Positions 9,897 to 13,633 of a DNA stretch of 64,000 nucleotides are shown in pieces. The notes beneath the pieces were generated by a model. The model had not been told where the DNA came from and did no database searches. It saw nothing but the letters and a program-made list of their open reading frames with translations. Source of the stretch: Streptomycetaceae bacterium (GTDB lineage Bacteria > Actinomycetota > Actinomycetes > Nanopelagicales > Nanopelagicaceae). The position numbers and the translations under genes are program-made. How positions within the stretch are numbered: the first letter of the stretch is position 1; every line of letters begins with the position of its first letter. Where the stretch lies: positions 62,001 through 126,000 of the forward strand of contig JAIXXJ010000021.1 in the NCBI GenBank assembly GCA_027490815.1, given 5' to 3'.

Positions 9897-11795
9897 CTAC
9901 TGTACTTTAATCGTTACTGTGCTGCCACGTTCAACTTTTGTTTTCTTACCAGGAGAGACAGATATAACGTACTTGACCTTATTTTTTCCTGTCGAAACTA
10001 CCTTTGGCTTTAGACCAAGAGATTTCAGGAGATTTTGAGCTGCAACAGATTCCATGGCAATAATGGTTTCTGGAATAAAGGTATAGCGAGGACCCTTTGA
10101 AATAACGATAGAAACTTTTGCACCTTTATTTATTGCCGAACCACCGGCGGGGCTTTGTGAAATGACTGCAAGCTCTAAAACACTCTCGCTGTATGCATAT
10201 GTTGGTTGGACATCAAAACCAGCTTCGGTTAATTCATTAAGGGCTTGCTCTCCGCTTTTGCCAAGATATGAGGCCAAAGCAATTTGCTCAATTCCTTTAG
10301 AGACAATCACTTCAATTTGAGCATCTCGTTTTACTGATGTTCCTGACTGCGGAATTGTTTCGATCACAAAGCCTTTGGGGATTTCACTGCTAAAGACTTC
10401 TTTTATTGGGAGAAGTTCTATTGGATATTTCAAGATGGCATTTTGGGCGGCTGAAACAGTTAATCCTGTTGTTTTAGGAATCGTGTATCGCTCAGGTCCC
10501 TTGGAAAGGATAAAACTAACGCTGCCATTGGCCTGAACTTTTCCACCACCGGCTGGGTTTGATTCGATAACGCTACCTTTTGCAATTTCTTCATCGAATC
10601 TGCTTTCGAGTACTGTGGCTGTAAGTCCCAGCGGCTGCAGAATAGATACTGCTTCATCATATGTTGCTCCGACTGTCGATGGAACTACCACTTGTGATCC
10701 TGGACCAACCAAACTCCACCAACCTGCCACACCAACTGCGACTGCAAGAATTAAAGCAACCTTACGATTTCTGCGCACACGCTTACTTGCTCTTTTTTTC
10801 TTTTCTTCTTTCCGCCTCAATTGACGAGTGGTCTCTATTTTTTCTTCTTCAACTACCGGTTCAGACTTAAGAGCTTCTTTCTTTTGGGTTTTCTCACGAA
10901 TTGGTTCAACGGGCAGGTCTAAACCAAGTGACATTTGATTTTTCTTCGGATCTAAATCAACTTGTATTTGCGCGAGTTCATCCAAAAACTCAGATGCAGT
11001 GCGGGGTCGATCGTCTGGGTTTTTTGAAGTTGCTCGGGCAATTAAGTCATCCAGTGCCTTCGGAATCTCTTTGCGCTTACTGCGAAGGCGAGGAACTTCT
11101 TCATTAACATGCATATAAGCAATCTGAATGGGGGAGTCGGCAGTGAAAGGTTTATCACCAATTAACATTTCGTAGGCAACAATTCCTGCCGCATATACAT
11201 CACTTCGAGAATCAGCGATTCCCCTTTGGACCTGTTCTGGAGAAAGATATGAGACGCTTCCTAAAATCACACTGGATTCAGCTGTCATTGTTGAGCCAAT
11301 AATTTCACCTCTTGCTAAACCAAAATCAGCAACTTTAACTCGTCCCTCATTTGAAATCATTATATTTTCTGGCTTAACATCACGGTGAACAATGCCTAAT
11401 GCGTGAGCTGCAGATAATGCACTCAGAATTGGAGTTAAGTAGTTCATTGCATCTTTAATCTCGAATCTTCCGCGTTCATTCAAATACTCTCGTAAAGTGT
11501 GACCTTCTATAAGTTCCATAACTAAAAAGACAGCAGGGACACCATTTTGGTTCCAGCCTTGATCTTGGACAGCCACGATGTTGGGATGGGAAAGTGCAGC
11601 TGCTGCTTTTGCTTCGCGAATAAAACGTGAAACGTAGGAATCATCTTGTGCCAGATGTGAGTGCATAATCTTTACTGCAACTTTACGATCTAATCGAGTA
11701 TCGATCGCCTCATAAATAGCTGCCATGCCACCATTGGCTACCTGACGCAATAATTGATAGCGACCGTCAATGAGTTCACCGGTCAGATCAGACAT
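9897..11795 (-). CDS. Ser/Thr protein kinase with four PASTA repeats
   Basis: GGMAAIYEAIDTRLDRKVAVKIM, GIVHRDVKPENIM, VADFGLARG; TM (VALILAVAVGVAGWWSLV); four PASTA units ending in xxxSKG or TIKVQ. Confidence 0.95.
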   Translation of the reverse strand: MSDLTGELIDGRYQLLRQVANGGMAAIYEAIDTRLDRKVAVKIMHSHLAQDDSYVSRFIREAKAAAALSHPNIVAVQDQGWNQNGVPAVFLVMELIEGHTLREYLNERGRFEIKDAMNYLTPILSALSAAHALGIVHRDVKPENIMISNEGRVKVADFGLARGEIIGSTMTAESSVILGSVSYLSPEQVQRGIADSRSDVYAAGIVAYEMLIGDKPFTADSPIQIAYMHVNEEVPRLRSKRKEIPKALDDLIARATSKNPDDRPRTASEFLDELAQIQVDLDPKKNQMSLGLDLPVEPIREKTQKKEALKSEPVVEEEKIETTRQLRRKEEKKKRASKRVRRNRKVALILAVAVGVAGWWSLVGPGSQVVVPSTVGATYDEAVSILQPLGLTATVLESRFDEEIAKGSVIESNPAGGGKVQANGSVSFILSKGPERYTIPKTTGLTVSAAQNAILKYPIELLPIKEVFSSEIPKGFVIETIPQSGTSVKRDAQIEVIVSKGIEQIALASYLGKSGEQALNELTEAGFDVQPTYAYSESVLELAVISQSPAGGSAINKGAKVSIVISKGPRYTFIPETIIAMESVAAQNLLKSLGLKPKVVSTGKNKVKYVISVSPGKKTKVERGSTVTIKVQ

Positions 11796-11850: not shown

Positions 11851-12360
11851 CTATGAAGTAAGTTTCACATCACAGTTTTCGGCTGTTTTATCCACCTTAA
11901 AGTGCACATCTTGATAGCTCTGCCAAATGAGCATTAAATCTCTCAGGTGGTATCCATCTCGATCTAACACGCGTTGTAGCCCGATTTCTGGCGGTGTTTC
12001 AATCCAATAAGTCTTTGCACCTGCATCTCTGACTATTTTTTGCGCAGCACCAACACCTTCGAGAATAAGAACCTTTGTTGATTGGATTAACTCCGCTTCA
12101 CCATATTCCATCGTGATCCAATTGAATCTTTTTATGTAGAAATCCTTGCCAGCTTTATGTGCTTGAACAATTTCTGAAAGCTTCAAAGTAAGCTCTTCGG
12201 ATAAGGCATGTTCCCACCCGTTATAGAGATCATCCATATGAATAACTTGAACTGTCAAGGTTGGTTGGTACTCACTTTGAAGTTTTGCAGCCAACGTTGT
12301 TTTACCCGATCCTGCAGGGCCATCAATTGCTAAGAGCACGTTGCCAACGTCGCCAACCAA
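11851..12360 (-). CDS. Small uridine-kinase-like P-loop kinase
   Basis: LLAIDGPAGSGKTTLAAKL Walker A, VIHMDDLYNGW, ILEGVGAA. An alternative GTG start at 12339 still overlaps the pnuT stop. Confidence 0.8.
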   Translation of the reverse strand: MVGDVGNVLLAIDGPAGSGKTTLAAKLQSEYQPTLTVQVIHMDDLYNGWEHALSEELTLKLSEIVQAHKAGKDFYIKRFNWITMEYGEAELIQSTKVLILEGVGAAQKIVRDAGAKTYWIETPPEIGLQRVLDRDGYHLRDLMLIWQSYQDVHFKVDKTAENCDVKLTS

Positions 12361-12898
12361 TAATTGCTACAGCTGTAAACACTACATACAACATCGCAGT
12401 AAACCAGTATCCCAAGAGCAAGTACTGCGTGCTTCCAACAATATTGATGATGAGCCAAAGAAACCATGCCTCAAATTTTTCGTAAATCATCATTACTTGG
12501 GCAAATAAACTGCCAACAAGAATGAAGGCATCTGACCAGGTTGCTGCTGCTCCAATGCCAGATAGCACTGGAGATAAAACTGCAACCGATGCTATAACTC
12601 CAACACCTATGTAAAGACGTTTTCTGGTAGATAACACTCCTGGCTTGGCGCCCTTTGGTCCCCATCCGCGCCAGCCATAAATGGCGGCAACAATAAAAAT
12701 TATTTGAAGCGCGGCACTTGCAAAGAGTTCGACTTGGTAGAAAAAGACTGCATACAAGATGCTTCCGGTGGCCCACCATGGCCATGTAATTCGCTTTCCG
12801 GTTGTTCCCAGCCAAACTCCAACAAATGAGGTAATAGCTGCTATAAATTCCAAGATAGAGACTTCGTATCCCCAGGCAGTAAATAAAATAGATGACAT
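12323..12898 (-). CDS. PnuC-family transporter; predicted thiamine (PnuT-type) transporter from its TPP riboswitch
   Basis: PnuC-type Trp-rich TM protein (WPWWATGSILYAVFFYQ, IYGWRGW, WFLWLIINIVGSTQYLLLGYWFTAMLYVVF). Track start 12916 lies inside the riboswitch; MSSILFTAWGYEV at 12898 follows GGAAAGG. Confidence 0.88.
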   Translation of the reverse strand: MSSILFTAWGYEVSILEFIAAITSFVGVWLGTTGKRITWPWWATGSILYAVFFYQVELFASAALQIIFIVAAIYGWRGWGPKGAKPGVLSTRKRLYIGVGVIASVAVLSPVLSGIGAAATWSDAFILVGSLFAQVMMIYEKFEAWFLWLIINIVGSTQYLLLGYWFTAMLYVVFTAVAIIGWRRWQRALSN

Positions 12899-12907
12899 TG
12901 TGATTTT

Positions 12908-12987
12908 CCTTTCCATATCCGCATTACCGGATCGGTCTAACGGTCGGTCTGAATTTCAGACCCTCTCAGCCGTGGTGGCTCCCGTTT
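12908..12987 (-). promoter_or_regulatory. TPP (THI-box) riboswitch upstream of the PnuC-family gene
   Basis: Minus strand reads ACGGGAGCCACCACGGCTGAGAGGGTCTGAAATTCAGACCGACCGTTAGACCGATCCGGTAATGCGGATATGGAAAGG: conserved GGGAGCC..GGCTGAGAGGG, GACCGATCCGG-TAATGC and 3' GGAAAGG elements. Confidence 0.9.
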
Positions 12988-13007
12988 TCATATAGTAGCG
13001 TTATCTC

Positions 13008-13334
13008 GTGCTTAAGTTCGGTTATCTTGCCATGATTGCATTCACAGTATGTGGCTCCATTTGGCTTGAGTTTGTACTTAAAGTAAAGGTTTTGAAAAGA
13101 TATAAAAGGGCAATCAAGGCAATTCTTCCAGTCTCTTTAATCTTTATTACCTGGGATGCCTATGCAATCCATCAAGGGCATTGGTTCTTCGATAGAAATC
13201 AGATTCTGGGGATTTTTGGACCCTTTGGTATTCCGCTGGAAGAGTACTTGTTCTTTACCGTAGTTCCATTGGCTGCGATATTAACAATAGAAGCAGTGCG
13301 AACAGTGAAAAAACATTGGCAGGTATACAAATGA
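13008..13334 (+). CDS. crtYc: Lycopene cyclase domain protein (heterodimeric cyclase subunit)
   Basis: Three-TM lycopene cyclase domain: WDAYAIHQGHWFFDRNQILGIFGPFGIPLEEYLFFTVVPL; GTG start. Confidence 0.9.
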   Translation: MLKFGYLAMIAFTVCGSIWLEFVLKVKVLKRYKRAIKAILPVSLIFITWDAYAIHQGHWFFDRNQILGIFGPFGIPLEEYLFFTVVPLAAILTIEAVRTVKKHWQVYK

Positions 13335-13633
13335 CCTATACGCAGTTAGCGATCAGTGCTGTTGTAATTGTCATAATCCTTGATCTCTACGTTATCAAAA
13401 CCGGCTTACTTAAGCGGAAAGTTTTTTGGACTTCTTACGCAATAATTGTGGGTTTTCAGCTTCTTACAAACTGGTGGCTAACTTCTCGAAATATCGTGAT
13501 GTATAGCCCCGATGCAATATTGGGACTTCGAATAGCATCTGCCCCAGTTGAGGACTTACTTTTTGGTTTTGGGCTGGTTGTAGGCGTTTTAGTTAATTGG
13601 ATAAGGCTAGGCGCTTCAGATAAGCAGCACTAG
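13316..13633 (+). CDS. crtYd: Lycopene cyclase domain protein (second heterodimeric subunit)
   Basis: LTNWWLTSRNIVMYSPDAILGLRIASAPVEDLLFGFGLVV; overlaps crtYc. Confidence 0.9.
   Translation: MAGIQMTYTQLAISAVVIVIILDLYVIKTGLLKRKVFWTSYAIIVGFQLLTNWWLTSRNIVMYSPDAILGLRIASAPVEDLLFGFGLVVGVLVNWIRLGASDKQH

Follow-up and report, generated by a model that had tools for sequence, protein, structure and literature searches.

A candidate thiamine kinase encoded with PnuT behind a divergent TPP riboswitch in acI actinobacteria

The acI actinobacteria, described as outnumbering all other bacteria in most freshwater lakes, are thiamine auxotrophs, with nearly all enzymes of thiamine biosynthesis and salvage missing from their genomes (Kang et al. 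2017; PMC5301498). The same study described a THI element in front of a PnuC gene which probably encodes PnuT. In the portion of the paper that deals with this element, imported thiamine is left without an activating enzyme and an adjacent kinase goes unmentioned. Related arrangements are known from other bacteria. In Bacteroidetes, TPP-riboswitch-controlled PnuT is coupled to a TPK-type enzyme in pnuT-tnr3 operons (PMC5613172). The APH-fold protein ThiK (YcfN) of enterobacteria converts thiamine to thiamine monophosphate (ThMP), on which ThiL then acts. The B1 salvage enzymes listed in a large gut-microbiome reconstruction are ThiK, ThiM and ThiN only (PMC6593275).

The locus analysed here lies in a window of 64,000 nucleotides (contig JAIXXJ010000021.1, positions 62,001 to 126,000) from a Nanopelagicales (acI) actinobacterium with a genome of 1.23 Mb that is 93% complete. 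This placement follows from gene order and from relatives, one of which is a locus named Candidatus Nanopelagicales (L230). Its minus strand carries, in this order, a TPP-type aptamer, a PnuC-family gene and a gene for a small P-loop kinase (Table 1). The riboswitch and the transporter correspond to the THI element and PnuT of Kang et al. (2017), in the same lineage. This half of the locus has already been published and, measured against the above portion of that paper (PMC5301498), the kinase half is the new part. The locus is similar to the Bacteroidetes operons in that a TPP-riboswitch-controlled PnuT is joined to a putative thiamine-phosphorylating enzyme; however, the TPK-type enzyme would be replaced here by a candidate P-loop kinase working ahead of ThiL. 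The proposed reaction is the same as that of ThiK, whereas the kinase is a uridine-cytidine kinase (UCK)-like P-loop protein and the window genome contains no match to the ThiK model.

Table 1 Features of the aptamer-pnuT-kinase locus (positions in the window)
Feature	Position	Strand	Evidence
Divergent TPP riboswitch aptamer	12895..12995	-	RF00059 27.9 bits vs gathering score 54.3; covariation of P2, P3 and P5 in 13 relatives
pnuT, candidate thiamine facilitator: a membrane protein of 191 aa from the PnuC family (NMN_transporter fold)	12323..12898	-	PF04973; start and overlap read from the sequence; PnuT proposed for acI by Kang et al. (2017)
Candidate thiamine kinase, a small P-loop kinase of the PRK06547/NF005115 family	11851..12339	-	NF005115 92 bits; UCK/Udk-like fold of an aligned homologue; adjacency to pnuT conserved in at least 103 of the 118 kinase-bearing order genomes

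The original prediction, made from the sequence alone, had described a PnuC-family gene overlapping a P-loop kinase gene at its 3′ end, and this was confirmed. The PnuC-family protein matched PF04973 with 127 bits (E = 1e-36, cut-off 27.3). ATG at 12898 was taken as the pnuT start, the list of open reading frames (ORFs) beginning the same gene at 12916. The kinase gene probably starts with GTG at 12339 (162 aa) and then overlaps pnuT, including its stop codon, by 17 nt; the other choice is TTG at 12360 (169 aa), which is the form in the ORF list. Beyond the kinase, a serine/threonine protein kinase gene follows next in the same direction (start at 11795). Upstream and divergent are two lycopene cyclase halves: the cyclase is split between two half-genes that overlap and encode about 105 aa each (13008-13633, plus strand), with crtB and crtI beside them on the opposite strand. 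Scans of the region for promoters and terminators gave signals at or below the shuffled expectation.

The original prediction had also called the leader a near-consensus TPP aptamer. The aptamer itself was found: RF00059 aligned over its full length (model positions 1-105), with E = 0.001 in a short search and 0.00101 genome-wide. The label near-consensus is nevertheless too strong since the score is only about half of the Rfam gathering score (Table 1), and a scan of the whole window at the gathering threshold gave no match, the aptamer appearing only in the E-value scan. The core is complete, with the CUGAGA and GGUAAUGC motifs and paired stems P2, P3 and P5. These stems keep their pairing in an alignment of 13 sequences, where 10 of the 19 pairs show compensatory changes, and the 3′ end of the aptamer runs into the Shine-Dalgarno sequence and start codon of pnuT. 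With a relaxed threshold, a TPP match was detected in 96 of the 121 genomes analysed from the order; in 85 (this genome and 84 others) it lies directly upstream at the kinase locus, at the expected distance, mostly with 30-46 bits. The element is thus a divergent TPP aptamer, real and conserved though short of the Rfam threshold, which is predicted to bind TPP and to control the operon.

At least 103 of the 118 kinase-bearing order genomes encode PnuT directly upstream of the kinase and on the same strand, and direct inspection added two more (L051 and L053). Such conservation shows that the pair is not a chance neighbourhood. PnuC-family genes unlinked to the kinase, with PF04973 scores above that of the window gene, were also seen at L031 (G035), L032 (G110) and L033 (G113).

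The kinase carries the Walker A motif DGPAGSGKT. Its best curated family, as well as that of homologues from all four transporter contexts described below, is NCBIfam NF005115/PRK06547, a ‘hypothetical protein’ family with no assigned function. Since the window kinase reaches only 92 bits against the cut-off of 173, whereas the homologues L125, L127 and L129 pass it with 190-209 bits, it is a diverged member of this group. An AlphaFold2 model was built from a 23-member alignment headed by the homologue L125 and not by the window protein (pLDDT 93.6, pTM 0.88). The top Foldseek matches of the L125 model were uridine-cytidine kinases and phosphoribulokinases, with a TM-score (query) of about 0.7-0.77. 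In spite of this likeness in fold, identity to that group is only about 13-22%, the cut-offs of uridine kinase models are missed and the family has a YxGW signature of its own. Walker A, YxGW, a tryptophan corresponding to W80 of L125, EGxG and two arginines are invariant or nearly so in the alignment. The TPK catalytic domain PF04263 was absent from the Pfam matches listed for the window kinase. The description of the protein as a uridine-kinase-like Walker-A protein resembling neither ThiK (APH) nor ThiN/TPK was therefore borne out: a P-loop protein with a UCK-like fold is unrelated to both.

The thiamine pathway of the order has a gap which such a kinase could fill. Among the 121 order genomes, the thiamine pyrophosphokinase domain (TPK_catalytic, PF04263) was found in none, genuine ThiE in five, ThiL in 119 (108 of them above the equivalog cut-off) and the PRK06547-type kinase in 118, which leaves the conversion of thiamine to ThMP as the single missing step. 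TMP-TENI matches below the cut-off were not counted as ThiE, and G017, which passes only with frame neighbours and is fragmentary, was left out. Since ThiL is retained without ThiE, ThMP must arise by phosphorylation of thiamine or by import. The window genome itself encodes ThiL (209 bits) outside the pnuT-kinase locus and gave no match to TPK, ThiE or the ThiK model.

The original prediction had also proposed to check whether genomes with the pair lack ThiN and ThiK, and in the order the outcome was favourable: besides the absence of TPK, no protein in the 121 genomes matched the ThiK model TIGR02721 above its cut-off. APH-family proteins, present in most order genomes, were considered as ThiK and rejected on this basis. 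In about 43 of the 121 genomes, such a protein is weakly ThiK-like (55-78 bits against the cut-off of 299). The distribution of these proteins is patchy (G021, G113, G035 and about 40 others) and includes G035 and G110, two genomes without the P-loop kinase. They might be a second thiamine kinase, which is accordingly possible in some order genomes, or something unrelated. In the class as a whole, TPK_catalytic was matched in 122 of 395 genomes; the matches listed are partial (mostly about 36 residues) and lie in longer ORFs of typically about 410 aa, so they were rejected as true TPK. They would fit SteA rather than TPK. SteA is a cell-envelope regulator with one TPK-like domain and is reported to be absent from Nanopelagicales (PMC12977500).

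In eight order genomes (G007, G044, G058, G075, G080, G088, G108 and G113), the kinase has no PnuT beside it. At all eight loci the gene keeps its usual neighbourhood before the serine/threonine kinase gene (the G080 contig ends inside that gene), and in all eight genomes a TPP riboswitch elsewhere adjoins another thiamine-type transporter. The replacement is ThiB in seven of them (TIGR01254, 181-239 bits, cut-off 93) and YkoE (YkoEDC) in G044. The kinase is absent only from G035, G059 and G110, all three of which have ThiE and are prototrophs (kinase absence vs ThiE presence, Fisher p = 3.5e-5). All belong to one genus (g8), so the absence counts as one evolutionary event and not as three. 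The riboswitches examined in these genomes stand in front of thi genes and of the gene for a CytX-like HMP permease (CytX match below the cut-off), and no thiamine transporter was seen behind any of those examined. In G035, thiE, a TPP riboswitch, thiO and thiG occupy the slot that has crtB with the lycopene cyclase halves on one side and the serine/threonine kinase on the other (L086, 5473-8759), whereas the matching slot in the auxotrophs, as in the window (11851-12995), holds the riboswitch, pnuT and the kinase. Judged by gene order, this looks like an in-place swap of biosynthesis for salvage.

In the class as a whole, a search with NF005115 detected the kinase in 265 of the 395 genomes. 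A homologue is also present in the control genome C. glutamicum. In this species, the ABC transporter gene cg1227 has a TPP riboswitch in front of it (PMC3890552). A first sample of 40 non-Nanopelagicales loci was chosen by lineage before most contexts were viewed (a few of the genomes had been glimpsed earlier with short flanks). Greedy ORF calling performed poorly in high-GC loci, and the contexts were derived from stop-to-stop frames and profile searches. In nine of the 40 loci, the kinase lies directly downstream of a thiamine-type transporter on the same strand (five YkoEDC, three NMT1-type and one PnuT), and 31 have no thiamine transporter directly upstream. A second sample of 19 loci, picked partly by genus after the first 40 and thus not unbiased, added six YkoEDC and three NMT1 linkages. 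A scan of named genomes, which favours the relatives of its YkoEDC-linked query, found YkoEDC linkage in Mycolicibacterium, Mycobacterium, Cryobacterium, Leifsonia, Agromyces, Aurantimicrobium, Microcella, Pontimonas and Corynebacterium, ThiB-ThiP linkage in Leucobacter chironomi, Leucobacter luti and a Cellulomonadaceae MAG, and PnuT linkage in three MAGs, at least two of them Nanopelagicales-like by gene order or name. Taking all linkages outside the order together, the kinase follows YkoEDC directly and on the same strand at 27 loci, an NMT1-type binding protein at six, ThiB-ThiP at three and PnuT at four. At least L237 and L225 of the PnuT-linked loci are Nanopelagicales-like by gene order, L230 is named Nanopelagicales, and L164 comes from another family. 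TPP riboswitches above the gathering score precede most YkoEDC operons and both Leucobacter operons; weaker matches precede the PnuT and two NMT1 operons.

Two side observations concern these loci. The Leucobacter thiB-thiP-kinase operons (L214 and L232) have no ThiQ ATPase gene between permease and kinase; a shared ATPase, or one encoded elsewhere, may serve instead. A large ORF near the pnuT-kinase loci L164 and L230 and near L215, where the kinase stands alone, reads like a TPP-dependent 2-oxoglutarate decarboxylase/dehydrogenase (Kgd), judged by eye from its N-terminus only.

Relatives of the kinase thus adjoin four unrelated kinds of vitamin B1 transporter across actinobacteria, and it is for this reason that we regard the kinase as probably the unrecognized enzyme by which bacteria without the textbook enzymes phosphorylate imported thiamine. 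The many members without a thiamine transporter directly upstream in the first sample mean, however, that the family may be functionally mixed, the transporter-linked members being thiamine kinases and the others acting on another small molecule. This alternative concerns the family and overlaps with our preferred explanation, and we consider it possible, if rather doubtful. The unlinked kinases adjoin unrelated genes, e.g. those for DNA polymerase IV, argininosuccinate lyase and triosephosphate isomerase (read by eye from translations), and the context labels cluster on the kinase tree. In that quick tree of 148 kinases, whose deep forks have weak support, the labels nevertheless need at least 16 changes and linked members occur in several regions. 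The motifs YxGW, DW, EGxG and RxxxR are common to linked and unlinked members alike, and TPK is apparently missing from the whole class, both of which argue against a division of functions.

The links to YkoEDC and NMT1-type proteins alone do not fix the substrate since both systems can also carry HMP. These known or predicted carriers of HMP-like compounds (PMC6593275) would suit a kinase phosphorylating a thiamine precursor, HMP or hydroxyethylthiazole, instead of thiamine. We judge this improbable. ThiE, the enzyme that would condense the products, is missing from 116 of the 121 order genomes, so phosphorylation of either precursor would be a dead end there. Moreover, the prototrophic g8 genomes have a CytX-type (HMP) permease and no kinase, and PnuT and ThiB are thiamine-type transporters. 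No substrate but thiamine agrees with PnuT, ThiB and the loss of ThiE all at once.

Nicotinamide riboside (NR) is the classical cargo of PnuC proteins. An ordinary nucleoside or NR kinase beside an NR importer, in a merely incidental thiamine neighbourhood, would agree with this and with the fold and weak profile matches, which point to uridine kinase. Such a reading is very improbable: the leader of the operon is a TPP aptamer and not an NAD one, ThiB and YkoEDC, to which homologues are linked, have nothing to do with NR or nucleosides, and the window kinase scores 37 bits with the uridine kinase models (TIGR00235/PRK05480) against equivalog cut-offs of 180-220. A thiamine pyrophosphokinase making TPP in one step would close the gap left by the missing TPK equally well and has a precedent in the pnuT-tnr3 operons, but we give it hardly any credence, since P-loop kinases of the UCK/phosphoribulokinase group transfer the gamma phosphate and such an enzyme would make ThiL redundant, whereas ThiL is kept in 119 of the 121 genomes despite the loss of ThiE, which is sensible only if ThMP is made or imported.

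We conclude that the window kinase is, with high probability, a thiamine kinase which forms a TPP-controlled uptake-and-trap operon with PnuT. PnuT would let thiamine equilibrate across the membrane by facilitated diffusion, and the kinase, using ATP, would convert it to ThMP and so trap the imported vitamin in the cell. ThiL, encoded elsewhere in the genome, would add the second phosphate, and the resulting TPP would bind the leader and shut the operon down. The original prediction of a thiamine uptake-and-trap operon with an undescribed salvage kinase is in this way strongly supported by comparative genomics, which nonetheless falls short of proof. The proposed reaction is a known one; the enzyme family is likely to be new. 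A search of the open-licence literature found no described actinobacterial thiamine kinase, and an earlier description elsewhere is possible. With more moderate confidence, we favour the broader view that PRK06547, as a new family of P-loop enzymes, phosphorylates thiamine in Actinomycetia generally and enables ThiL-dependent salvage whatever the transporter; of the genomes sampled from this class, about two thirds carry the kinase, and a canonical thiamine pyrophosphokinase was not found in the class.

If this assignment is correct, the kinase would close the thiamine pathway of the acI actinobacteria. It would also give a function to a conserved ‘hypothetical’ family carried by most of the sampled actinobacterial genomes, and would change the prediction of thiamine auxotrophy and salvage for genera such as Corynebacterium and Mycolicibacterium.
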